A DNA stretch of 64,000 bases. Source: Spirochaetales bacterium (GTDB lineage: Bacteria; Spirochaetota; Spirochaetia; SZUA-6; JAFGRV01). How positions within the stretch are numbered: the first letter of the stretch is position 1; each line of letters starts with the position of its first letter. Positions 3,358 to 45,986 of the stretch are shown here, piece by piece. The notes under the pieces were generated by a model. It saw only the letters and a list, made by a program, of their open reading frames with translations, was not told where the DNA came from and made no database searches. The stretch lies in the NCBI GenBank assembly GCA_016935735.1, contig JAFGQK010000194.1, positions 1 to 64,000 on the forward strand, written 5' to 3'. Position numbers and translations under genes: made by a program.

Positions 3358-3789
3358 ATGACAGGATTTTTACTTCCCATTGTGATTCATGATATACGGA
3401 AAAAGAGAATTCCGGATATCTATACTTTTCCCGGTTGTGCATCTCTTTTCCTTTTACAGGTTCTTTTTTTTCATAACTACCTGATATTTATAGATGCAGC
3501 AGCCGGTTATGGATTCATATGGCTTGTCTGGTTTTTTACCGGCGGCAAGATTGGAAGAGGAGATGCGAAATTGTCTGCCCTCATAGCTACGGGCCTGGGG
3601 CTGGTGGGATGGGTAATAGCTCTTTTCTGGGCTTCTTTTACCGGGTTAATAACCGGGGTTATTCTCATAAAAATGAAAAAATTAAAAATAAAGGAGGAAA
3701 TCCCTTTTGCACCGTTTCTGGCAGCAGGAGGTGTGATTTCATTTATAACAAAAGACTTAGTGATGAGGTTATATTATGTTTTTCAATAA
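3358..3789 (+). CDS. Prepilin peptidase (A24 family, short form)
   Basis: An inner-membrane aspartyl protease that cleaves the leader of type II secretion pseudopilins. The first catalytic Asp is in IHDIRKKRIPD and the second in the GRGD motif (GKIGRGDAKLSAL), with several membrane segments. The N-terminal methyltransferase domain of full-length GspO/PilD, including its four-Cys motif, is absent, so N-methylation of pseudopilins needs another enzyme or does not occur. The start is doubtful: the ATG at 3358 leaves only 12 residues before the first helix's Asp and has no ribosome site. The same frame is open upstream, and AGGAG (3307-3311) sits 7 nt before an in-frame CTG at 3319, which would complete the first membrane segment. 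First gene of the gsp operon. Confidence 0.85.
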   Translation: MTGFLLPIVIHDIRKKRIPDIYTFPGCASLFLLQVLFFHNYLIFIDAAAGYGFIWLVWFFTGGKIGRGDAKLSALIATGLGLVGWVIALFWASFTGLITGVILIKMKKLKIKEEIPFAPFLAAGGVISFITKDLVMRLYYVFQ

Positions 3790-6007
3790 GACCAGTATAA
3801 AAAGAACAATAAAATTCCTCGCTTTCATTATTCTTCTTTTCATGACACAGGTACTTTATGCAAAGAAAATAGAGAAATTGGAATTTTACGAACAGCCCAT
3901 TTCAGACATTCTTCTTTCCCTGGCAGGGATAGGCGGGGTTTCCATTGTCCCGGATGAAACAGTTCATGGGAATGCATCCTTTGTATTTATCGATATTGAG
4001 TTTGAAGATGGACTAAGAATATTCTTAAATACATATAATTTATATCTTAAGGTAGAAAATGGGATCTACTATGTTTCAAAAATCCGGGCAGATTATAATG
4101 CAGCCCTGGATATTATAACAGCCTTTGATGCAGAGGATGTAAATCTGTATCTTTTAGTCGAAGCCCTGGCAAAAGCGATTAATAAAACCATTTTAAAGGA
4201 TCCCCTTCCCACATTAACCCTCTCTATTCACCAGAAAAACATTAAAGTAAAAGAGCTTCTTGAAATTTTTATTGCCCAGGCAACCCAGTATAAACTTGTT
4301 GTATACCCTTCTTATTACCATATTCAATTAATACCAACCCCAACCCCGCTAGCGGATACCGGAACCCCGGCGCCTGACCGGAAGGGGCAATTCTTTCAAA
4401 GGGAAGGATCTTTATATAGTATTCAACAGGAAAGAAAACGCTTTAAAGAACTTCTGGAAGAGCTTTTCAGATTGGAAGGGGCAGAATATCAACTTCTTCT
4501 TCAGAGAGACATTTTAATTGACTCATGGTTAAGGTTTTATAATAGGCCCTTTGAAGAAATGCTTAGACTTCTCTGTGAACAGGGGAATGCGGATTTTAAA
4601 AAAATAAATGATGTTTACTATATTTTCGAGATTGCCCAGCGGGATATTTTGAAAAAATTGAAAGATACAATTGTCATTCCTTTACGGTATATAACTGCCC
4701 AGGATCTTCAGCGCCTTCTTCCGCCGGATCTGGGATCAAGTAAATTTTACAGGATCGATATCAATAGTAACCTTATTATTTTAAACGGGAGTCTGGACGA
4801 GATTATGTCCATCGCAGACTTTATTGAAATGCTCGATAAACCTCTTGCCACCACCGTGTATTACCGGTATGATCTGAAGTTTTTAAAAGCAGCCAATTTC
4901 CAGGCATTACTCCCGGATGACTATAAATTCCTGAAAGTAGTACAGATTCCTGATTCAAATGCAGTGGTAATTCCCCTTACCCCTGAACGGAAGGGGTTCC
5001 TCGATGAATATGTTTCGATTCTGGATCAACCCCTCCCCTCTTCCGAAATACATCTAAAGTATATAAAAGCAGAAGACCTGGTAAAGAGTTTGCCTCCTTC
5101 CGTAAAAAAAGAAGATATTGTGGAAACTCAAGACCCGTCAATTATATTCTTAAAAGGTCCCCCGGAAAAACAGGAAGAGTTCAAACGGGAACTTTCCATT
5201 ATTGATCAACCATCACCACAGATTGTCTATCATATCCTTGCTATCTCTTATTCCGAATCAGAGACAATGAACTGGCAGCAGACAGATAATCCCTTTACGT
5301 TCAGCGATTCTGCCGCGGTAAACAGTGTCTTTTCCGGGAATATCAGCAACCTGCTTTCCATTAACTTTGATATACCGACTATACTCGGGTATCACCTTGC
5401 AGCAAACCTTAATCTGTCTTTGAATACAAACGATACGGAAATTCTCACTGATACCACCCTTTATGCCCTGTCCGGTGAAAAGGTGAGTTTTAATGATACA
5501 GAGGTATTCAGGTATTCCGTGGGGGTAACGGATACTACCACCTCCGGTGAATCGACAACAGTAGCCGGACCAACAGAATCAATTGATACAGGGTTTACCC
5601 TGTCGATCGAAGGTTGGGCTTCCGGGGACGGGATGATTACGATGGGGGTAGAAGTTATGATTTCAAGCCAGGGGACTTCAACAATTGATGTCTCGGGAGG
5701 AAATCTTGGGAATACCTATGAAAAAACGATTAATACGAAATCCAGGACTGAATCGGGAAAACCGATAAAGATCGGTGGTCTTATCCGGGAAAATACAAAA
5801 ACAAACATTGATAAAATTCCGTTATTGGGTGATATCCCATTCGTGGGTTTTCTTTTTCAGAAGAAAACAGAAAACAAAACAAGGAGTGAGATCGTCGTTT
5901 ATATTTTGCCCCATATCATGATGTCAGAAGAAGAAAAAGCCGATACCGACAGGCGTCTAAAACGGCTTTATTCCAAATACCTTAGTAAAACGAGGGAAGG
6001 AACATAA
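3776..6007 (+). CDS. gspD: Type II secretion system secretin
   Basis: Outer-membrane secretin that forms the exit channel. A signal peptide (residues 1-28, ending LYAKK) is followed by an N0/STN-like domain, several N-domains with the repeated pattern 'IPLRYITAQDL...LP', 'YDLKFLKAANFQALLP' and 'IHLKYIKAEDLVKSLP', and the C-terminal secretin domain. The secretin signature is visible as KPIKIGGLIRENTK...KIPLLGDIPFVGFLF followed by SEIVVYILPHI. A short Pro/Thr segment at about 190-200 may be a linker. The start overlaps the prepilin peptidase by 14 nt, and GAGG lies 7 nt upstream. The length of 743 aa is within the GspD range. Confidence 0.95.
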   Translation: MFFNKTSIKRTIKFLAFIILLFMTQVLYAKKIEKLEFYEQPISDILLSLAGIGGVSIVPDETVHGNASFVFIDIEFEDGLRIFLNTYNLYLKVENGIYYVSKIRADYNAALDIITAFDAEDVNLYLLVEALAKAINKTILKDPLPTLTLSIHQKNIKVKELLEIFIAQATQYKLVVYPSYYHIQLIPTPTPLADTGTPAPDRKGQFFQREGSLYSIQQERKRFKELLEELFRLEGAEYQLLLQRDILIDSWLRFYNRPFEEMLRLLCEQGNADFKKINDVYYIFEIAQRDILKKLKDTIVIPLRYITAQDLQRLLPPDLGSSKFYRIDINSNLIILNGSLDEIMSIADFIEMLDKPLATTVYYRYDLKFLKAANFQALLPDDYKFLKVVQIPDSNAVVIPLTPERKGFLDEYVSILDQPLPSSEIHLKYIKAEDLVKSLPPSVKKEDIVETQDPSIIFLKGPPEKQEEFKRELSIIDQPSPQIVYHILAISYSESETMNWQQTDNPFTFSDSAAVNSVFSGNISNLLSINFDIPTILGYHLAANLNLSLNTNDTEILTDTTLYALSGEKVSFNDTEVFRYSVGVTDTTTSGESTTVAGPTESIDTGFTLSIEGWASGDGMITMGVEVMISSQGTSTIDVSGGNLGNTYEKTINTKSRTESGKPIKIGGLIRENTKTNIDKIPLLGDIPFVGFLFQKKTENKTRSEIVVYILPHIMMSEEEKADTDRRLKRLYSKYLSKTREGT

Positions 6008-6009
6008 AA

Positions 6010-7521
6010 ATGGAAGTTATCGATGATTTTGTCCATGATCTTCCAATGGTCCAGGTTTCCCTCTCGGACTTTAAACCCCTTCCGGAGGGAGACCGGCAGT
6101 ATCCACTGGAATACATAGAAAACAATGGAGTTATCCGGCTAAAAGAGGATGACGATATGGTGTTCGTGGGTGTTGTGGATACGAAAAATTATACCCTGCT
6201 GGAAAATCTTAAGAATTTCCATAAAAAGCGGATTATTTTCTGTGCCCTGGATAAGAATGATTTCTCTGCTTACTTAAGCGAGAGGCTGGCTGCCTCGAGT
6301 ATGGACGAAGAAGGCGCTGAAAAACCGGAAAATGAAAAAATACTTTTAGACAAATTAGCCAATGATGCACCGATCGTTATGCTGGTCAACAGTATTATGA
6401 TAGAGGCAATCAGAAAAGGTGCATCGGATATTCATATAGAAGGATTTGATGATGAGGTGTATGTCCGGTACCGGATAGACGGACACCTCAAAACTGTTTC
6501 TAAAATAGATAAAGACAGGTTCGCAGCAGTAGCTTCCAGACTCAAGATTATGTCGAACCTCAATATCATGGAAAAACGCCTTCCGCAGGATGGGAGAATT
6601 TCCGTGCATCTTGGAGATGATGAGATCGATCTGCGTGTTTCAATTATACCTATTGCTAATGGAGAATCTTTAGTTTTAAGGCTTTTTAATAAAAAACGGA
6701 CACTCCTGAAACTCGGGGAAACAGGGCTGTCAGAAGAACAGCTTGCCGAATTCAGGCATAAATGCAATACACCAAATGGGCTTCTTCTTGTCACAGGACC
6801 CACCGGGAGTGGAAAAACCACGACACTCAGTGCAGTACTCCAGGAACTGAACTCGGAACATGTGAAGATTATTACTATTGAAGATCCTATTGAATATGTA
6901 ACAAAGGGAATCAACCAGATACAGACAAACGAACGTATCGGGCTTACCTTTGATTCCATACTCAGGCGCGTCCTGAGACAGGATCCGAATATCGTTATGG
7001 TCGGCGAGATACGTGATTCGGAAACAGCCGAACTTTCTATCAGGGCTGCACTTACCGGACACCTCGTTTTTTCCACTCTTCATACAAATGATTCCGTATC
7101 GGTTATCACCCGCTTAAGGAATATGGGGATCGAGCCGTATCTTCTGGCTGCTGTCTTAAGAGGTTCACTTGCCCAGAGGCTTGTAAGGCAAATATGTTCA
7201 CACTGCAGGGAACAGGTCAAACCGTCGCCTGCAGAAATAGGTCTCCTGAACAGGTTTAAAATTCCTGCGAAAACGCCGATTTTCGAAGGAAAAGGTTGTG
7301 AAGAATGTAACGGAACCGGCTATAAAGGCCGGCTTGGCGTATTTGAATATTTCTCCGTCAATCCCGAAGTGGAGGAAATGATTATAAAGGGAGTAAAGGA
7401 TTCCTTAATAAAAGAGTATCTTGTATCCCGGGGCATGAAGACCCTTCTTGCAGACGGGATTGATAAGATTATTAATGGAGTTACAACAATTTCTGAAGTA
7501 GAAAGGGCTGTTTCAGGATAA
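6010..7521 (+). CDS. gspE: Type II secretion ATPase
   Basis: Cytoplasmic hexameric ATPase that powers pseudopilus assembly. The order is an N-terminal GspL-binding region, then 'GASDIHIE...YVRYRIDG', Walker A GPTGSGKTT (263-271), an Asp box (ITIEDPIEY), Walker B with VGEIRDSETAE, and a His box HLVFSTLHTND. The C-terminal tetracysteine zinc site is CSHC ... GCEEC. The length is normal (503 aa). It starts 2 nt after gspD and its TAA overlaps the gspF ATG, so the genes are translationally coupled. Confidence 0.97.
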   Translation: MEVIDDFVHDLPMVQVSLSDFKPLPEGDRQYPLEYIENNGVIRLKEDDDMVFVGVVDTKNYTLLENLKNFHKKRIIFCALDKNDFSAYLSERLAASSMDEEGAEKPENEKILLDKLANDAPIVMLVNSIMIEAIRKGASDIHIEGFDDEVYVRYRIDGHLKTVSKIDKDRFAAVASRLKIMSNLNIMEKRLPQDGRISVHLGDDEIDLRVSIIPIANGESLVLRLFNKKRTLLKLGETGLSEEQLAEFRHKCNTPNGLLLVTGPTGSGKTTTLSAVLQELNSEHVKIITIEDPIEYVTKGINQIQTNERIGLTFDSILRRVLRQDPNIVMVGEIRDSETAELSIRAALTGHLVFSTLHTNDSVSVITRLRNMGIEPYLLAAVLRGSLAQRLVRQICSHCREQVKPSPAEIGLLNRFKIPAKTPIFEGKGCEECNGTGYKGRLGVFEYFSVNPEVEEMIIKGVKDSLIKEYLVSRGMKTLLADGIDKIINGVTTISEVERAVSG

Positions 7522-8729
7522 TGCCAATTTATATATGTAAAGTCGTTGACAACAGCGGAAAAACAAAGGAAATAACAAAAGAAGCACAAAGCCAGGATGC
7601 ACTCATCCTCGAACTTACCCAGTTGAAATATTCTCCAATAAAAATACATGAAGTAAAATCCCGGGAAGAATCGGTAAAAACAGGCAAGCGTTTTTCCCGT
7701 GCAGCTATTATTGAGTTTACAGAAACCCTCTCTCTTCTTCTTACATCCGGGCTCTCCTTGAAAGATGCCCTGGAAGTGGTCAGGACTATTTTTGCAAAAG
7801 GGCCGGTAAATAAACTTACCAACACACTTATCGAAAAGATAAAAAAGGGCGATTCATTTTACCAGGCACTGGAAAAATACAATACCAGCTTCCCTCCCCT
7901 TTACCGGGGGCTTGTTAAAATCGGGCAAAAGATCGGATCTTTGGAAAATATATTTGAAAGACTTTCAGGGTATTTAAGGCAGAGTAAACAGATACAGGAT
8001 AAACTCATGAGTGCCCTGTCAAACCCGCTTCTTACAATCGGTTTTGCAGTACTCTGTGTAGTGGGCATGGCTATTTTTATCTTTCCCCGCATTAAAAGCA
8101 TTTTCGAACAACTCCAGGCGGATGTAAGCAGTCAAATTCAATCTTCCATGGCCATGGTGAATGCCTTTTTTGTTTTCGGGAGTATTTTTTTAATTACTGT
8201 TATTTCCTTTGTTATTGCAGTGTACTTTATCCGAAGAAGTGAAGGCAGTCTGAGAAAACAGCTTGATAAATTTCTTTTAAAAATACCTATTATTGGGAAA
8301 GTTATCTATCTCCAGGAAAGTCTTAATTTTCTCTTTGCCATGGAGACCCTTACCGGAAGCGGGTTTGCTGTCGAGGATGCCCTGCCGGAAGCGGGAAAAG
8401 TTCTGGGCAACATGGCCCTTGCTTCAGGTGTTGATGCAATCCGGAAACGTGTTATAAAAGGGGAGCACCTTTCTAATGCATTCTTAAAAGACCCTTATTT
8501 TGAAGATCGGATAGGCCGGTGGATGTCTATTGGCGAACGCTCCGGTAAGGTGGAAAAGGTATTCGAGCAATTAAGACGCTATTACCAGGAAGAACTGGAT
8601 AAATGGTCAACACGGTTTATGGGAATAGTTGAACCTGCATTAACGATTTTTGTCGGGGTAATAGTGATGGTATTTATTCTTGTATTCTTCGTGCCGATTT
8701 TCTCAATATATCAAGCCATACAATATTAA
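7521..8729 (+). CDS. gspF: Type II secretion inner-membrane platform protein
   Basis: Polytopic inner-membrane protein of the GspF/PilC family that couples the ATPase to the pseudopilus. Two homologous cytoplasmic T2SF domains (about 70-190 and 275-395) are each followed by membrane helices, with three hydrophobic stretches near 170, 215 and 380. Family-like segments include FTETLSLLLTSGLSLKDAL and GERSGKVEKVFEQLRRYY. An overlap of one base with gspE (TAATG) indicates coupling. The length of 402 aa is standard. Confidence 0.95.
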   Translation: MPIYICKVVDNSGKTKEITKEAQSQDALILELTQLKYSPIKIHEVKSREESVKTGKRFSRAAIIEFTETLSLLLTSGLSLKDALEVVRTIFAKGPVNKLTNTLIEKIKKGDSFYQALEKYNTSFPPLYRGLVKIGQKIGSLENIFERLSGYLRQSKQIQDKLMSALSNPLLTIGFAVLCVVGMAIFIFPRIKSIFEQLQADVSSQIQSSMAMVNAFFVFGSIFLITVISFVIAVYFIRRSEGSLRKQLDKFLLKIPIIGKVIYLQESLNFLFAMETLTGSGFAVEDALPEAGKVLGNMALASGVDAIRKRVIKGEHLSNAFLKDPYFEDRIGRWMSIGERSGKVEKVFEQLRRYYQEELDKWSTRFMGIVEPALTIFVGVIVMVFILVFFVPIFSIYQAIQY

Positions 8730-14231: not shown

Positions 14232-15443
14232 ATGAAAAACAAATTAAAAACAATTTTCCTTATCTGCCTTATCCTGCTTCTGGCAGGAATTATTGAACTT
14301 TCTGCACAGGGGTTTTCAATCAGTGGGAAAAGGCTCATTGATGCTAATGGAAATGAGTTTATTATCCGGGGTATTTCCCATGCCCACTGCTGGTACACGG
14401 ATAAGACAAGTGCAATAGCAGATATTGCCTATGTCGGTGCAAATACCGTTCGCCTGGTCTGTAGTAATGGTGTCCGCTGGACACAGACTGATTCCAGCCA
14501 GTTATCAAACATCATCAATCTGTGTAAACAGAATAAACTCATCGCCATGCCGGAAGTCCATGATACAACGGGATATGGTGAAGAAGGGGCTGCCTGTACC
14601 CTGTCCCAGGCAGTGAATTACTGGAGAAACATGCAAAGTGTATTGAACGGGCAGGAGGCATACGTTCTTATTAACATCGGGAATGAACCTTATGGAAACA
14701 ACAACTATTCCAACTGGGTGAATGATACAAAAAGTGCCATTCAATCCATGCGAAGTGCAGGATTCAATCATACCCTGGTTGTTGATGCCCCGAACTGGGG
14801 TCAGGACTGGTCATTTACCATGCGGGACAATGCACAGTCTATTTTTGATGCAGATCCGGCCAGGAATACCCTCCTCTCTGTGCATATGTACGGTGTTTTT
14901 GATACTGCTTCCGAAGTCCAGAGTTACGTTTCCAACGTAACCGGTAAGGGGCTTCCTCTTATCATTGGTGAGTTCGGACATAATCATTCTGACGGGAATC
15001 CGGATGAGGATGCAATTATGTCCAACGCCCAATCCTATGGTATCGGTTATATGGGGTGGTCCTGGTGCGGAAACAGCAGTGATGTCAGTTACCTTGATAT
15101 GGTAAACAGCTGGAACCGTAATAGCTTAACATCCTGGGGAGATAGAATCATTAATGGTGCAAATGGGCTAAAGCAAACATCCCAGATATGTTCAGTGTAT
15201 TCCGGTGCAACTCCCACCCCGAGTAATCCCCCGACCAATCCGCCCGGGAATCTCGGTGATACGAATGGGGATAATGATATCAATATTGTGGATGCGCTTT
15301 TGATTGCCCAGTATTATGTGGGTCTGAATCCCTCGAATTTCATTATCGGAAACGCAGATACAAATTGTGATGGTACTGTTAATATTGTGGATGCGCTTCT
15401 CGTTGCACAATATTATGTTGGCCTGATAACAAGCTTCTGTTAA
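14232..15443 (+). CDS. Secreted GH5 endo-beta-1,4-mannanase with type I dockerin
   Basis: Cuts internal beta-1,4-mannosidic bonds of mannan. A signal peptide (1-26) is followed by a GH5 (subfamily-8-like) TIM barrel at 27-320 with acid/base Glu152 (NIGNEPYG) and nucleophile Glu247 (LIIGEFGH). A Pro/Thr linker (327-339) leads to a type I dockerin (341-403) with two calcium loops, DTNGDNDINIVD and DTNCDGTVNIVD, each followed by ALL(I/V)AQYYVGL. A Cys in the second loop pairs in position with the C-terminal Cys. The dockerin implies docking to a cohesin, none of which is encoded here. ATG preceded by GGAGG. Behind its own promoter, right after the type II secretion operon that probably exports it. 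Confidence 0.93.
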   Translation: MKNKLKTIFLICLILLLAGIIELSAQGFSISGKRLIDANGNEFIIRGISHAHCWYTDKTSAIADIAYVGANTVRLVCSNGVRWTQTDSSQLSNIINLCKQNKLIAMPEVHDTTGYGEEGAACTLSQAVNYWRNMQSVLNGQEAYVLINIGNEPYGNNNYSNWVNDTKSAIQSMRSAGFNHTLVVDAPNWGQDWSFTMRDNAQSIFDADPARNTLLSVHMYGVFDTASEVQSYVSNVTGKGLPLIIGEFGHNHSDGNPDEDAIMSNAQSYGIGYMGWSWCGNSSDVSYLDMVNSWNRNSLTSWGDRIINGANGLKQTSQICSVYSGATPTPSNPPTNPPGNLGDTNGDNDINIVDALLIAQYYVGLNPSNFIIGNADTNCDGTVNIVDALLVAQYYVGLITSFC

Positions 15444-18599: not shown

Positions 18600-21500
18600 C
18601 TAGAACAAATGCCTGAACTTGTTCATGAGTTCTACCCGTGTCTGCACATTAAATTTCTTATAGATATTATAAACATGGGTGGTCACTGTTCTTTGTGAAA
18701 TTTTAAGATGATAACTTATTTCCTTATTTAATAATCCTTTTGCAAGAAGTATGAGTACATCCATTTCCCGGGCAGTAATATTATGCTCGGCACACATCCT
18801 GTTAAAATAAAAATATTCTTTTGTAGATTTTTTATTGACGGATATATTTTCTATTGTCTCCATTAAACGCTTCCCAAGTAATGATATATTCTTCTTTCTG
18901 TCTTTTATCCTGTATTGAATAATGGTCTTGATTTTGGCAATAACTTCATCCAGAAGAAAAGGTTTATAAATGTAATCGATAGCCCCTTCCGACAGACCGC
19001 GAATTTTTTCATCTATTGTATTCTTTGCAGTAAGAAAAATAAAAGGAATAGTATTATAATCTTCATTTTTCTTCAGGGTTAAAAGAAACTCATGACCATC
19101 GATTCCATCCATCATGACATCGGAAATAATAATATCCGGCAGGGGTATTATTTCCAGCTTTCTTAATGCTTCTTTTCCATTACAGGCAAGATATACATTA
19201 TACTCTTCTCTTAAGCTGGTTTTAAAGAAATAGAGTAATTCTACATTATCATCAACAATAAGAATATTATCTTTATCGGGACTTAATTCTTCTTCTTCAA
19301 GATCGTGTATAATATAATCCACAGGGACAGTGTATGGTATATTCCGTATCATTTCTTCATCTGCCGGGGTATGAGATTGAGTAATAATTGAAACAGAGGT
19401 CCCTTTGTTTTCTTCACTTTCAATCCGGATATCTGCACCTATTGATGTTGCAATCTGTTTAGCAATAAAAAGTCCCATTCCCATTCCCTGTGTTCCCGCC
19501 TTTTTATGGGAAAGTTGATAATATGGAAGAAAAATGTGATTCAATCTTTCCCTGCTTATCCCGGTCCCATTATCCTTTACACAAAAAATCACCGAGTCAT
19601 TTTCTTTTTTCAGTGAAACGAGAATTTCTCCTCTCCTGTGTGTATATTTTATTGCATTATCCATAATATTATTGATGATCCTGTCAAATGCATAAGGATC
19701 TGCTTTTATGAAAATACCCGGCATTATCGTTTCCAGTATGGTAATATTCCTTTTTCTGGCTGTTTCTTTAAAAAGGATTATCCTGTTTTGAATAAATTCT
19801 GAAAGATCAACAACCTGATTATGATTATAAATAATCTGCCCGCGCTTCAATTTTTCTACATCGAGATAATTGGTCATATTATTTATTAATAGTGTAATAT
19901 TGTGTTTTATAATATTCAGGTCCGTATCCATTCCTGCTTTTTTTATATAGTTGTCCAGGTAATTCTGTATAAGGGTTAATGGTGTTTTTGTATCATGAGC
20001 GAGATTAATAAAGAATTGTGTTTTCTGTTCATTTGCTTCTTCCAGTTTCTTCTTTGCATGTTCAAGTTCAATTGTCCGTTCCTGTATTTTTGCTTCCAGA
20101 TCAGATGAATATAACCGGATTTCTTCGATATACTCTGCTGCTTTGAGTGTACTGCTTAACTCACCTGCCAGGGTTTCCTGTTTGATTAAATCCAGGGATT
20201 CAGTATCGCAGAGAAAGAAACCGAGAGGTTCATTTTGAAGAAAAAGTGGGAAAACAGTAAGGGTAAATCGCTCCTTTGCTTTTTTTAATCCCCCCGGAAT
20301 CAACTGCCGGGATGGAAAATACGGGGCTTTTGAATCGACATCCAGGCTTTGATCTTTATTATATGAGACAAGGAGTCTTGCATAGTTCCGGTCTATGCTG
20401 TTTTTATCAAATAAACATATATATAATGTTTTTACCCCGAGTTCACTGAATTCATTAATTAAAAACTTTTTTAATTCCTCTATTCCTTTTGTGGAAATTA
20501 GCCATAAACTGGTTTTTTTGTAGGTAACATCCCTTTCCTCTGCTTTTTGTAATAAAAAAAGAAAAACACGTTCGGTAATCGGACCAAGAGAAAAAATTAT
20601 TTTATTAAAAAGATTATGCAGGCATGTTAAAAGACCGGAATCACAATAATTTCCGGCTATTGTAAACAGTGTAGAAACAATCGTATATATTTCAGGTATG
20701 GTGATGCCATGTTCCACTGCCTGGAGGAATACCCTTTCAAGTGCAATCATAAAAGCATCTTCGGATTGCTCATCGATCCAGGTGATAAATGCATCAATAA
20801 GATGTTCAATCCATTTTTTATTTGAAATTTTTCGTGTTATTGTATATTCCAGGTTGTTCAATATAATCTGTGTCATTTTCTTTGCCGTGAGTATGCCTTT
20901 TTCTCTTTTGCTATTGTCCGTACCAGCCAGTACTGGTATTGATGTATTAAATTCCCGGATATCATAAGGCCCGGTACAACCACAGGAATGTCTGACCACA
21001 AGTCTTGTTGGAAGATATATGGTTTCCGGGGCTTTATTGTTTGTGAGTATGGAAACCATTAAACCCATTGCTTGATAACCCATTTCAAACATCGGCTGTT
21101 CCACAGTAGTAAGAAAAGGCAAAACCCCGCAACTTATTTTTGTATTATCAAATCCGCCGATTTTAACATCCTCGGGCACACGGATACCGCGTATATGTAA
21201 TTCCTCCATTGCAGAGATAGCCATATAATCATTTGCACCTATAATAGTATCAAAATCAATGTTACGTTTATCAATAAGTGTGCTTACTGCTTCTTTCCCG
21301 GCAATCTTGCTGAAATTCCCCGGCATAATAAGCCCGGGATCATACGGAATATGATACTCTTCCAGAACCTTCCTGTATTCATCCAGCCTTTGTATTGCAT
21401 CCGGATTTTCTTTCGGACCACATATATATGCGATTCGTTTTGAGTTATGTTTTTCAATAAAATGTGCAAGAAGGTCCCTCATTCCCATGCTGTTATCCAC

Positions 21501-21863
21501 GATAATGTTATGCTTTCCCTTAAGAACAACACCGATACTCACCACCGGAAGAGAGGAAAAACGCTTAAAGAATTGATTTATTTCCTTAACCCCGATAAAA
21601 TGGCCAATGGAATTGCTTAAAGCGATAATTCCATCAATATTCTCTGCACTTACCAGATCATAAAGAGTATTTTTTTGTGCATAGAAATAAAGCGGAGATT
21701 TTACTGCACCCCCCTCAAAACAAAGAAGATTAACATTATAATCCTTTGCAGCTTCAACAATACCTTCACTAATCTGATAAATATAGGCTTCAAAAAAAAG
21801 GCTGCCGAGAAAACCGATAGTAAAACGCCGTGATTGATGTTTTTTCGTGCTTTTTTGTTTCAT
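18600..21863 (-). CDS. Cytoplasmic hybrid sensor: LacI-type sugar-binding domain, histidine kinase, receiver, LuxR HTH
   Basis: A 1087-residue single-chain signalling protein. Domains: LacI/GalR-like substrate-binding domain (about 13-300, 'IGFLGSLFFEAYIYQISEGIVEAAK', 'FDTIIGANDYMAISAMEELHIRGIRVPEDVKIGGFDN'); a helical and GAF-like region (320-560); coiled coil (575-612); HisKA with His623 (LAHDTKTPLT); HATPase (DNAIKYTHRRGE, VKDNGTGI, GMGMGLFIAKQ); receiver with Asp915 (IIISDVMMDG) and Lys near 967; LuxR-type HTH (1025-1087, 'ITAREMDVLILLAKGLLNKEISYHLKISQRTV'). No signal peptide or membrane helix, so sugar sensing would be intracellular. No LacI HTH. The ATG has no ribosome site, and a TATAAT lies 15 nt upstream. 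It is divergent from the GH12 gene, a likely target. Confidence 0.9.
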   Translation of the reverse strand: MKQKSTKKHQSRRFTIGFLGSLFFEAYIYQISEGIVEAAKDYNVNLLCFEGGAVKSPLYFYAQKNTLYDLVSAENIDGIIALSNSIGHFIGVKEINQFFKRFSSLPVVSIGVVLKGKHNIIVDNSMGMRDLLAHFIEKHNSKRIAYICGPKENPDAIQRLDEYRKVLEEYHIPYDPGLIMPGNFSKIAGKEAVSTLIDKRNIDFDTIIGANDYMAISAMEELHIRGIRVPEDVKIGGFDNTKISCGVLPFLTTVEQPMFEMGYQAMGLMVSILTNNKAPETIYLPTRLVVRHSCGCTGPYDIREFNTSIPVLAGTDNSKREKGILTAKKMTQIILNNLEYTITRKISNKKWIEHLIDAFITWIDEQSEDAFMIALERVFLQAVEHGITIPEIYTIVSTLFTIAGNYCDSGLLTCLHNLFNKIIFSLGPITERVFLFLLQKAEERDVTYKKTSLWLISTKGIEELKKFLINEFSELGVKTLYICLFDKNSIDRNYARLLVSYNKDQSLDVDSKAPYFPSRQLIPGGLKKAKERFTLTVFPLFLQNEPLGFFLCDTESLDLIKQETLAGELSSTLKAAEYIEEIRLYSSDLEAKIQERTIELEHAKKKLEEANEQKTQFFINLAHDTKTPLTLIQNYLDNYIKKAGMDTDLNIIKHNITLLINNMTNYLDVEKLKRGQIIYNHNQVVDLSEFIQNRIILFKETARKRNITILETIMPGIFIKADPYAFDRIINNIMDNAIKYTHRRGEILVSLKKENDSVIFCVKDNGTGISRERLNHIFLPYYQLSHKKAGTQGMGMGLFIAKQIATSIGADIRIESEENKGTSVSIITQSHTPADEEMIRNIPYTVPVDYIIHDLEEEELSPDKDNILIVDDNVELLYFFKTSLREEYNVYLACNGKEALRKLEIIPLPDIIISDVMMDGIDGHEFLLTLKKNEDYNTIPFIFLTAKNTIDEKIRGLSEGAIDYIYKPFLLDEVIAKIKTIIQYRIKDRKKNISLLGKRLMETIENISVNKKSTKEYFYFNRMCAEHNITAREMDVLILLAKGLLNKEISYHLKISQRTVTTHVYNIYKKFNVQTRVELMNKFRHLF

Positions 21864-21877
21864 TAACGTATACTCGT

Positions 21878-21883
21878 ATTATA
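21878..21883 (-). promoter_or_regulatory. -10 box of the hybrid sensor gene
   Basis: TATAAT on the minus strand, 14 nt before the ATG at 21863; the -35 region is poor. The predicted leader is about 8 nt without a ribosome site. Confidence 0.4.
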
Positions 21884-21918
21884 TACCTTGTTACTTATTG
21901 ACTATTAGAAACTCTTAT

Positions 21919-21994
21919 ACTTTTGTATAGCATAATATAAGGAGGTTCTTGCAAAAATACCATATTTACTGCAAGAACAAACCTATACAAAAGT
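21919..21994. repeat. Long imperfect hairpin A in the sensor/GH12 intergenic region
   Basis: ACTTTTGTATAG (21919-21930) pairs perfectly with 21983-21994, and inner GTTCTTGCA (21945-21953) pairs perfectly with 21970-21978. The 603-nt gap 21864-22466 holds this hairpin, two more directly after it, the GH12 promoter and its leader; no gene was found in it. Confidence 0.75.
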
Positions 21995-22034
21995 GGAGTA
22001 TTTTAATTCCTTTTAATATAATAAAAATACTCCA
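21994..22034. repeat. Hairpin B, directly after hairpin A
   Basis: TGGAGTATTTT (21994-22004) pairs perfectly over 11 bp with 22024-22034; the loop is 19 nt. It shares one base with hairpin A. Confidence 0.75.
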
Positions 22035-22035
22035 A

Positions 22036-22084
22036 AGCCAATTGCAAAAAATCTATAACTGTTACTGGATTTTTGCAATTGGCT
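22036..22084. repeat. Hairpin C, third in the row
   Basis: AGCCAATTGCAAAAA (22036-22050) pairs perfectly over 15 bp with 22070-22084; the loop of 19 nt contains CTGTTAC. No T-run follows, so it is not a simple terminator. Confidence 0.75.
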
Positions 22085-22261
22085 AAAAGAACACAAATTA
22101 TTTCACTATTATCACTATTTTATTATATCCTTAATTTTTTAAAATTATGTTTCATTTTCTTATCATATCTGACATCTTTTTTATAAAATATTATCTTTCT
22201 ACGAATAATTACGTAGAAAATCCCATATTAATTTATTACGACACATGTTGTTTTACTGTTG

Positions 22262-22267
22262 TATAAT
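22262..22267 (+). promoter_or_regulatory. -10 box of the GH12 endoglucanase gene
   Basis: TATAAT flanked symmetrically by CTGTT (22256-22260) and AACAG (22271-22275). No good -35 box exists, which suggests activator-dependent transcription. The leader would be about 190 nt. Confidence 0.4.
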
Positions 22268-22466
22268 AGTAACAGCAATTTAAAGAATGTCACTGTTACG
22301 TTTGTTTATGGGAAAAAGACACCAGGTGCAGGACCCGGGGCTGTAAATCAATAAGAAGGGGCAGGTATATTATTTATACTCAAAAAGAAAGGAGGAAAAA
22401 AGTTTACATTGGAATTGTAGTGATAAATCAAATTTTTTAATAATATACTATTAGAAAGGAAAAAAG

Positions 22467-23771
22467 ATGAAAAAAAAGGTAATTTTTAATGTAGTAATTA
22501 TTGCTTTACTGGCAGCTTTTGCTGTTCAAGCCCAGGAGACATGTGAAAAATACGGTATTATTGAGGTGAGTGGCGGGCAATATATGCTGGCAAACAATGT
22601 CTGGGGAGCAGATACAAGGCAGTGTATCCGTTCAACAGGATCGACCGGTTTTACTGTTTCCGTATCTGAACACAACCAGGGTTCTGTTGCTGCCTACCCT
22701 TCTATCTGGAAAGGTTGCCACTGGGGGGATTGTACAGTCAATAGCGGGATGCCGGTACGCGTAAGCAGTGCCGGGAGTGCAACCTTCAGCTACAGTGTAA
22801 GCAGTTCACGGCCTTCCGGGGACTACAATGTTGCCGCAGAATGCTGGTTAAGTGCAAGCTCTGATTCCAGCGATGGATATAATGGTGGTGCTGAAATTAT
22901 GGTGGTCCTCGATTATCGTAACATGTACCCGGCCGGTTCCCAGATCGGGACTTTTAATGGCCACGATGTGTATTATGCCAGTGTCGGGTGGAATTTTCTG
23001 ACCTATGTAAAAACCGGGCGAAGTTCGGCAAGTGGTAATATGATGGATTTTATCAATGATGCTGTATCCAGGGGATACGTGGATAGATCATGGTATCTCC
23101 ACGACATGGAAGCAGGATTTGAAATAATGAAAGGCGGACAGGGTCTTACCTGTAATTCATTCTCCTTCTCTGTCGGCGGCGGAGGACCCACAACGACGAC
23201 AACTTCAAGCGGAGGCTATACAACCACGACAACATCATCCGGCGGGGGGACAACGACATCGTCCGGCGGCGGGGGTATTGGCTGCGGTATCTGCAACTGG
23301 TACGGAACTAATTATCCAATATGCTGCACCACACAAAGCGGGTGGGGCTGGGAACAAAACCAGAGTTGTATTTCCCAGAGTACCTGTGATTCCCAGGGTG
23401 GTACAACAACCACATCCAGCGGCGGCGGTACAACAACAACGACATCCAGCGGTGGTTCCACCGCAACCCCGGCACCGACAGTAACACCGGCACCGACCCC
23501 GACTCCCGGTGGTGGAGGCGGCGACATTTGCAGCCCCAGTACCTCCATATCGATTCCCTTTACCCAGGATGGGTCAGGAAATTTTTGCTGGGAAACATCC
23601 AGTCTCGGCAGGTATATCAACTCCTGGAATGTTTCAACGCTGGAAGTAAATGGTGTTGATTTTACCAACAAGTATGTGAGTTCCAGCAACTACCCGGCCC
23701 AGGTAAATGGCAAGTATTACATCCGTTATGTGGCTAATCACGGGTGGAGCCACTTTGAAATAAGAAATTAA
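22467..23771 (+). CDS. Secreted GH12 endoglucanase with CBM10 and C-terminal binding domain
   Basis: Beta-1,4-glucan endohydrolase. Signal peptide 1-22 (AVQAQE); GH12 jelly-roll 23-236 with '[12 protein letters not shown]', '[11 protein letters not shown]', nucleophile Glu143 ([11 protein letters not shown]) and acid/base Glu219 (AGFEIMKGG). A Thr/Ser/Gly linker (237-272) is followed by a CBM10-type domain (273-309: [12 protein letters not shown] ... [12 protein letters not shown]). A second linker (311-352) leads to a C-terminal domain of about 80 aa (353-434) of unclear family, perhaps carbohydrate-binding. No dockerin, unlike the mannanase. AAAGGA precedes the ATG. Export through the type II system is inferred from the signal peptide. 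Confidence 0.92.
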
Positions 23772-43625: not shown

Positions 43626-45986
43626 ATGAATAAGCTGACATTATCTCGCTACAGTATACTTTTGTTTACATTAATTTTCACTATCTTAAGCAATACACTG
43701 CTTGTTGCGGCCCCGCATGAAGGTGAAATCTTTCATTTTCCCCAGCCGGACGGGACTTCTGTCACCGTGAAAATATGGGGGGATGAACACTACCAGATCG
43801 CAGAAGGACTTGACGGATACACCCTTGTCAAGGATCCGGCAAATGGCTGGATCTGTTATGCTGATGTATCTGACGATGAACGAGAATATGTTTCAACAGG
43901 TATCCATTATACACTCCACGATCTTGTCCCGGAAGAAGAAAGCGGGATTTCCCCTCGGGAAATAGATTCCTCTCGGGCAGCGGATTTAAAAAAACACTTG
44001 AGGATTTTGCCTGACTCGGTCCGGCAAAATGCTGATGCTGTGTATGCGGAATTAAATCAGGAACCTGTTGCCGGGAATTTTGTCTCTGAAGCTGCTGAAA
44101 TGGCAGCCCCGGCAGAACTGGATGTAACCGGGAATATCACCGGACTTACCATACTTGTCGATTTTCCCGATGTATCGTCCTCCATCTCCAGGGATGAAAT
44201 TATCAATCTTCTTAACCAGGAAGGGTATTCAAATTACAGCAACAACGGTTCTGTAAAGGATTATTTCCATGATGTATCTGCCGGAAAACTCACTTATGAA
44301 AACAGGGTCACTTCTTTTATCACCATGAATAATGCGAAAAACTATTATGATAATGGTGATGACTATACCGGTGCAAGGGTATTAATTTATGAAACCCTTG
44401 ATAAACTGCGGAATCTTGGCTTTGATTTTACGGAAATTTCAACAGGAAACGGTGAGTATACCGCGATTAACCTGATGTATGCCGGTGAACCGGAAGCCGG
44501 GTGGGGAAACGGACTCTGGCCGCATAAAGGAACTCTTGATGGTTCCTATACAATCAACGACATCCAGGTAAGGGGATACCAGATGTCGAATATCGGTACT
44601 GAATTATCCATCGGGACATTCTGTCATGAAAACGGCCACCTTCTCTGTAAATGGAAGGATCTGTATGCTTACGACAATCACGATTACGGGGTGGGCACGT
44701 ATTGTATTATGTCATATAATGATAAAAAGAATCCGCAGACACCAAACCCGTATTTCAGGTGGCTTGCAGGCTGGATCGATTATACCGAGATTGCAGGATC
44801 GGCACAGGGAACAGTATTCACTGCAACAGCGAACAGCAATGAAGTTTTCCGGTATTATACCGGGGGACAGGAGTTCTTCCTTATCGAAGCACGTACAAGA
44901 ACAGGGAGAAGTACCGTATTACCGGATGAAGGTCTTTTGATCTGGCACATCAATAGTGAGGGGAGTAATTTATACGAGAGTTACCCAAACATGGTTTCCG
45001 TTGAACAGGCAGATGGAAAAAACGAACTTGAAAATAGGATGAATAAAGGCGGTACCGGCGACCTCTTCCATGCAGGATATAATGACCGTTTTAATGATAC
45101 CACCCAGCCGGATGCACAGTACCTGTCAGGTTCAAATTCCGGTCTCGATATTGCTGCAATCAGCGATACCAGTGTAACAATGACCTTTACCTTTGGGGAA
45201 GGTACAGGATATACCCCGGATCCGACACCGGGCACAACGCCTGAACCAACTCCTACGGGGGGGAGTCAAACCGGTGATATAAAACTCCAGTACCGGTGTG
45301 CAGACATTAATGTATCCACCAATCAGATTAAACCTCACATCACCATTCTTAATACAGGAGATTCCGCTGTACCAATGAATCAGCTTACCGTAAGGTATTA
45401 TTATACCAGAGAAGGTTCGGGCGAGGAGGAATTTCATGTTGATTATTCCGGCATAGGAACCGGAAATATATCAGGAAGCTTTCAAAACGGCTTTCTGGAA
45501 GTGAGTTTTTCTTCCGGTGCAGGAACCCTTTCCCCGGGAGCACAGACAGGGGAAATACAACTCAGAATCAACAAAACCGATTGGTCTTCTTACGATCAAT
45601 CCGACGATTATTCGTTTGACGCATCGTACAGTGATTTCCTGGATTACACGAGGATTACCCTGTACCTGAACGGGATACTTACCTGGGGCACAGAACCCGG
45701 CGGGACGGAAATAACCCCCTCCCCGTACTCCACTTCTGCACCAACACCCGAACCGACAGGAATTTCCACACCTGAACCGACCCCGGGAGTTCTTCCGGGG
45801 GATGTGAACAGTGACGGTCTTATCGATATCCTGGATGCCCTGGTTGTTGCACAGTTTTATGTGGGGTTCGATCCTCCTGATTTTAATCCTGACGCGGCAG
45901 ATGTCAACTGCGATGATGTTATTGATATCCTGGATGCATTACTCATTGCCCGGTATTATGTTGGATTGATAGAAGGATTTTGCTAG
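43626..45986 (+). CDS. Secreted M6 metalloprotease with CBM3 and type I dockerin
   Basis: Signal peptide about 1-29. An InhA-type M6 propeptide and catalytic domain (30-525) with zinc motif His334-Glu335-x2-His338 (FCHENGHLLCKWKDLY) is followed by a Pro/Thr linker and a CBM3-type cellulose-binding domain (551-690: 'IKLQYRCADINVSTNQIKPHITILNTGD'). After a second linker comes a type I dockerin (724-786) with loops DVNSDGLIDILD and DVNCDDVIDILD and the final Cys. A protease carrying both a cellulose-binding module and a dockerin may process or protect enzyme complexes on plant fibre. AAGGAG before the ATG. Confidence 0.93.
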   Translation: MNKLTLSRYSILLFTLIFTILSNTLLVAAPHEGEIFHFPQPDGTSVTVKIWGDEHYQIAEGLDGYTLVKDPANGWICYADVSDDEREYVSTGIHYTLHDLVPEEESGISPREIDSSRAADLKKHLRILPDSVRQNADAVYAELNQEPVAGNFVSEAAEMAAPAELDVTGNITGLTILVDFPDVSSSISRDEIINLLNQEGYSNYSNNGSVKDYFHDVSAGKLTYENRVTSFITMNNAKNYYDNGDDYTGARVLIYETLDKLRNLGFDFTEISTGNGEYTAINLMYAGEPEAGWGNGLWPHKGTLDGSYTINDIQVRGYQMSNIGTELSIGTFCHENGHLLCKWKDLYAYDNHDYGVGTYCIMSYNDKKNPQTPNPYFRWLAGWIDYTEIAGSAQGTVFTATANSNEVFRYYTGGQEFFLIEARTRTGRSTVLPDEGLLIWHINSEGSNLYESYPNMVSVEQADGKNELENRMNKGGTGDLFHAGYNDRFNDTTQPDAQYLSGSNSGLDIAAISDTSVTMTFTFGEGTGYTPDPTPGTTPEPTPTGGSQTGDIKLQYRCADINVSTNQIKPHITILNTGDSAVPMNQLTVRYYYTREGSGEEEFHVDYSGIGTGNISGSFQNGFLEVSFSSGAGTLSPGAQTGEIQLRINKTDWSSYDQSDDYSFDASYSDFLDYTRITLYLNGILTWGTEPGGTEITPSPYSTSAPTPEPTGISTPEPTPGVLPGDVNSDGLIDILDALVVAQFYVGFDPPDFNPDAADVNCDDVIDILDALLIARYYVGLIEGFC

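Follow-up and report, generated by a model that had tools for sequence, protein, structure and literature searches.

A soluble fusion of a LacI-type ligand domain to a kinase-receiver-LuxR phosphorelay and the enrichment of its architecture beside dockerin genes in a spirochaete family

We analysed a 1087-aa protein encoded in a 64,000-nt stretch of DNA (the window) from a Spirochaetales bacterium. It is a soluble variant of the hybrid two-component system, i.e., a LacI/GalR-type ligand domain lacking its own HTH is fused to a histidine kinase, a receiver and a LuxR HTH, with all catalytic residues intact. We consider it probable that this single protein reads an intracellular small molecule, that its architecture class comprises local regulators of CAZyme genes, and that the divergent GH12 gene is the most likely target of this copy. 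Respective features are listed in Table 1.

Table 1. Coordinates of the features discussed (window positions unless a locus is named).
Feature	Position	Strand	Basis
Fusion-protein (regulator) gene, 1087 aa	18600..21863	-	ORF, Pfam domains, AF2 model
HTH-less ligand-binding domain of the LacI/GalR type (aa 14-298); conserved R159, N211, D212, D239	20970..21824	-	Pfam, phmmer, Foldseek, alignment
RxSCGC motif (RHSCGC, aa 291-296) at the end of the ligand domain	20976..20993	-	alignment
Helical linker module (aa ~300-460)	20484..20966	-	AF2 models
GAF-like domain (aa ~461-590)	20094..20483	-	AF2 model, Foldseek
HisKA-HATPase_c kinase core (aa 605-830); H623, N736, D764, G766, G793, G795	19374..20051	-	Pfam, alignment
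Receiver domain (aa 863-985); acidic pair D871/D872, phospho-Asp D915, T945, K967	18909..19277	-	Pfam, alignment
LuxR/GerE HTH (aa 1015-1087)	18603..18821	-	Pfam
Divergent intergenic region, regulator to GH12 gene, 603 bp	21864..22466	.	
Interspersed repeat, ~150 nt, three hairpins, inside the divergent region	21942..22086	+	
Divergent GH12-CBM10-CBM64 gene, candidate target	22467..23771	+	Pfam
GH5-dockerin gene, candidate target, 3.16 kb from the regulator gene	14232..15443	+	Pfam
Loci with CBM3-cohesin-dockerin proteins	L304:478-6174, L304:9742-12654, L305:4677-9719, L306:2137-7323, L307:3464-8824		

Pfam, PDB comparison and an AlphaFold2 model (mean pLDDT 83.5) agree on the ligand domain, kinase core, receiver and HTH listed in Table 1. 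The Pfam matches are Peripla_BP_3 (133-294; 1.2e-26), HATPase_c (722-826; 7.8e-25), Response_reg (867-978; 7e-22) and GerE (1028-1080; 1e-17). HisKA (613-672) is under the cut-off (3.4e-4), yet its H-box (HDTKTPL, at 623) is clearly recognisable, and solved kinases match the core. Translation starts at an ATG within an open frame of 1092 codons, i.e., only about five further codons are open upstream. Thus, neither an HTH nor a signal peptide is hidden there, and we rejected the possibility that a wrong start conceals an upstream HTH. An overlooked membrane helix or signal peptide was rejected as well, since no 19-residue Kyte-Doolittle window of the protein exceeds 1.28. The chain proposed in an earlier sequence-only reading is thereby borne out, including its lack of a signal peptide and a membrane helix. 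That reading overlooked the helical/GAF-like module (~300-590) and the RxSCGC motif.

The N-terminal region, read before as LacI/GalR-like, indeed has the fold of a LacI-family ligand domain (residues 14-295; Foldseek 2e-19 to 3e-17, TM to target 0.7-0.88; phmmer 9e-28). Best PDB matches are an ancestral LacI with D-fucose, AscG, CcpA, PurR and CelR-cellobiose. The ligand domain starts at residue 14, i.e., the N-terminal HTH of LacI is absent. The pocket residues R159, N211 and D239, which we take to be the counterparts of the sugar-contacting residues in LacI, are retained. Within the sensor family, R159, D212, D239 and SCGC are kept in nearly all aligned members, and both cysteines of the RxSCGC motif are found in 34/34 aligned relatives that cover the region (from Spirochaetota, Chloroflexota and Myxococcota). 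When the helical and GAF-like region is folded alone (AF2 mean pLDDT 79), GAF domains dominate the Foldseek list with a best E of 2e-3. A long coiled helix joins the GAF-like domain to HisKA.

The residues of the H, N and G boxes are invariant in 19 aligned kinases. All receiver residues named in Table 1 are present as well, and the kinase and receiver residues are invariant or nearly so over the whole HK-receiver-LuxR set. Given this full set of phosphotransfer residues, autophosphorylation followed by transfer to the in-cis receiver is likely by established two-component biochemistry. In the proposed mechanism, the LacI-type domain would close on its ligand, most likely a sugar or oligosaccharide imported after extracellular fibre breakdown. 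This change would be relayed via the helical/GAF-like module and the coiled helix to the HisKA-HATPase core, which would autophosphorylate on H623 and pass the phosphate on to D915 of its own receiver. Receiver phosphorylation would alter how the LuxR HTH binds to promoters in the vicinity. The main role of this class would be the local regulation of genes for secreted CAZymes, many of them with dockerins, and the window copy would most likely control the divergent GH12 gene. We infer the ligand class and the target, and likewise the direction of signalling and activation rather than repression.

The ligand domain belongs to a large sensor family. Searching the window's own genome with the protein gave 161 matches, among which a Pfam scan identified this HTH-less sensor in 29 more proteins, i.e., in about 30 in this genome. 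Their kinase outputs comprise HisKA or other kinases alone, HisKA_3 with or without PAS, HisKA-receiver, kinase-receiver-kinase-receiver and kinase-receiver-LuxR; a NarL-type regulator gene adjoins three of the HisKA_3-type fusions. Other outputs are GGDEF, PAS-GGDEF-EAL (three in tandem), SpoIIE phosphatase (four), HD-GYP, PAS-LuxR and AraC. Beyond this genome, it occurs as a sensor in Spirochaetales, Brevinematales, Anaerolineae and Polyangia and, more distantly, in Lachnospiraceae and others. Since 10/149 sampled Spirochaetota genomes encode it at E<=1e-40, its distribution is patchy yet multi-copy.

The exact sensor-kinase-receiver-LuxR architecture recurs. Each of the five genomes in the window's family has it, with 19 copies in total, and one more copy is found elsewhere in Spirochaetales (a MAG; L082). 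The search over the phylum with the full protein scored two candidates per genome and is therefore no reliable measure of frequency. The copies per genome are three in G000 (the window, C101 and a cut one on C66), three in G001, one in G002, seven in G003 (one cut) and five in G004 (one split). Variant ends are AraC in L091 (Anaerolineales) and SpoIIE in L189 (a distant spirochaete). Uniqueness of the fusion protein is therefore rejected, given the same sensor in about 30 proteins and the same architecture in other genomes. The earlier idea of a repressor-type sensor rewired into a phosphorelay holds in that a LacI-type domain is joined to one; it is not a unique event, being one of about 30 fusions that this sensor family has formed with various outputs in the window's genome.

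Several further loci were observed along the way. Three tandem genes for LacI-sensor PAS-GGDEF-EAL proteins are conserved across two genera (L040:1877-12645, L190:2152-13146), and a 1394-aa chain places a LacI-type sensor ahead of two kinase-receiver cassettes (L060:2857-7041). At L031:3903-7112, a LacI-type sensor-AraC HTH gene stands beside a gene for a 506-aa soluble, sensorless kinase-receiver-LuxR protein, with a CBM64 gene near; the pair looks like a split or pre-fusion one. A protein of 1989 aa (L032:556-6525) combines a Ser/Thr protein kinase, AAA ATPase, GAF, histidine kinase, receiver and LuxR HTH, and its kinase is nested in the sensor-kinase clade, beside L195.

With regard to evolution, the sensor-domain tree (n=87) requires at least 7 label changes for the kinase-receiver-LuxR output over well-supported branches. 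Most kinase-receiver-LuxR copies are in two sensor clades, while the window sensor is in a third, together with GGDEF-EAL and HisKA_3 proteins. In the tree of the kinase-receiver module (n=60), 16 sensor-bearing copies form one group with good support. The window kinase is placed just outside that dockerin-associated clade, near sensorless or differently sensed kinases. Judged from these trees, the kinase-receiver-LuxR architecture was assembled several times. The simplest reading, although deep branches are weakly supported in both trees, is that the window copy is a separate fusion from shared parts. No orthologue of the window protein was seen in the same-genus genome G003, which is 87% complete.

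To place the class in its genomic context, we compared the neighbourhoods of its copies with those of controls. A dockerin gene is located within 1.5 kb of 13/19 class copies, which are not fully independent of each other, compared to 10/88 controls (Fisher P=9e-7). This holds for both control sets, i.e., for the same sensor with another output (6/58; P=2e-6) and for the same output with another sensor (4/30; P=1e-4). These statistics are based on individually fetched loci with mean flanks of 2.5 kb for the copies and 2.6 kb for the controls. A density-based estimate, which deliberately overstates the dockerin counts in two genomes, expects 2.7 copies with a dockerin neighbour, where 13/18 are observed (P=6e-8). 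The neighbours are mainly secreted proteins, with dockerins next to GH16, GH8, GH43, GH31, GH26, esterase, GDSL or CBM (including CBM60) modules. Since the enzyme families differ between neighbourhoods, the shared ancestry of one locus does not account for the enrichment. The class-level result thus speaks for a role of such proteins in the regulation of glycan genes.

For the window copy itself, the evidence for control of the GH12 gene is weaker than for the class and consists of position. The link to glycan genes claimed in the sequence-only reading is strong at the level of the class. The dockerin gene nearest to the window copy is 3.16 kb off. The GH12-CBM10-CBM64 gene has a clear ribosome site. 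On the regulator side (21864-21890), the end of a TATAAT-like box is about 14 nt from the ATG and no clear ribosome site is seen, hinting at a near-leaderless transcript. The hairpins of the divergent region were considered as an operator and rejected, because they are part of an interspersed repeat of about 150 nt that is present in tens of copies in the window genome (RNA fold z -8.3). The repeat is limited to the genus, with weaker copies in the same-genus genome and none in three other genomes of the family, and it has no Rfam match. Its third hairpin shows paired changes on both sides, behind which there may be two repeat subfamilies.

The dockerin genes are part of a larger setting. In four of the five family genomes, 128 to at least 150 dockerin matches per genome are found, while the fifth has one; cohesins occur in the same four. 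Scaffoldin-type proteins of 970-1898 aa combine CBM3, one to three cohesins and one dockerin (loci in Table 1). By their predicted proteins, these four genomes hold a cellulosome-like complement. In the window, a CBM3-dockerin protein is encoded at 43626-45986, and type II secretion genes (secretin, ATPase, T2SSF) are located at 3776-8729, upstream of the GH5-dockerin gene. As far as the accessible text of a camel-rumen study goes, its spirochaete bins are without dockerins or cohesins (PMC6071333). Among the open-access papers searched, none describes such a system in Spirochaetota.

The class-level enrichment also bears on what the protein senses. The same mechanism could respond to a non-sugar intracellular signal (a purine, nucleoside, phosphosugar or partner protein) and serve a non-local regulon, with the GH12 gene adjacent by chance. 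LacI-type domains also comprise purine and nucleoside binders, and CcpA binds a partner protein (HPr). The close relatives by structure or profile include PurR, CytR and CcpA, and the window copy is outside the dockerin-associated clades. We nevertheless rate this as unlikely, given the enrichment of the class beside CAZyme genes and the sugar-bound LacI relatives among the best structural matches.

Two further explanations concern the function of the parts. The presence of a GAF-like domain, together with SCGC cysteines that are more conserved than the remaining sensor, would fit a ligand domain that is mainly a dimerisation or degenerate module, with the true signal received by the GAF-like domain or by the cysteines (redox or metal). 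This appears improbable, since nearly all relatives retain R159, N211, D212 and D239, and a degenerate domain would not call for such conservation. That the protein is an ordinary orphan hybrid kinase, i.e., a recent chimera of little function, seems very improbable in view of a full-length open frame, intact catalytic residues throughout and an architecture kept at 19 loci of the family, even though the same-genus genome lacks a visible orthologue and closer relatives of each half are found in other contexts. We thus prefer the reading of a soluble sensor of an intracellular ligand, most likely a sugar, with local CAZyme-gene targets.

On a larger scale, we tentatively propose, at somewhat less than even confidence, that a spirochaete family equipped with a cellulosome-like system controls individual dockerin-enzyme genes via many soluble LacI-kinase-receiver-LuxR paralogues, each reading a different imported oligosaccharide inside the cell, and that these arose via repeated shuffling of sensors and outputs. 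If true, this would be an intracellular counterpart of the Bacteroides hybrid systems and the clostridial SigI/RsgI sets. The window protein itself carries the principle of the hybrid two-component system over from the periplasm into the cytoplasm, and its family shows one repressor-type sensor plugged into nearly every bacterial output type inside a single genome. The enrichment beside dockerin genes provides a ready set of candidate regulators and predicted targets for the cellulosome-like system in Spirochaetota. The family tied to this system is of greater interest than the lone protein.

Among known systems, LacI/GalR repressors (LacI, AscG, CcpA, CelR) share the fold of the ligand domain and its conserved pocket residues, while the window protein is without the LacI HTH and signals via a phosphorelay to a LuxR HTH. 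In C. thermocellum, the LacI/GalR regulators GlyR1-3 control cellulolytic enzymes (PMC8457756). The CuaD-CuaS-CuaR system of R. cellulolyticum feeds a cellobiose-binding protein into a two-component system (PMC5663094). It is alike in combining a sugar-binding input with a two-component system in a cellulosome producer, but it consists of three separate proteins and its binder is a solute-binding protein rather than a LacI-type domain. The best NCBIfam match of the kinase-receiver part is the Leptospira hybrid kinase LvrA (NF047465; 1.5e-50), far under the cut-off (172 vs 1200 bits) and without the LacI domain and the HTH. A literature search for LacI-domain kinases returned nothing relevant. 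E. coli XylR is a LacI-type ligand domain fused to an AraC HTH, i.e., here, too, a repressor-type sensor of the cytoplasm has borrowed its output. Fusions of this kind are also found in Lachnospiraceae, Anaerolineae, Sorangium and others, and Peripla_BP domains with GGDEF/EAL have been noted (PMC8846402). The window protein differs from these in its kinase-receiver-LuxR output. LacI-domain fusions in general were overlooked in the sequence-only reading, which compared the protein only with the Bacteroides hybrid systems. The latter likewise hold sensor, HisKA, HATPase, receiver and HTH in a single chain encoded beside glycan-degradation genes; they sense in the periplasm and span the membrane, and their usual output is an AraC HTH. 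The window protein, in contrast, is soluble, has neither a membrane segment nor a signal peptide, and connects a LacI-type sensor to a GerE/LuxR HTH.
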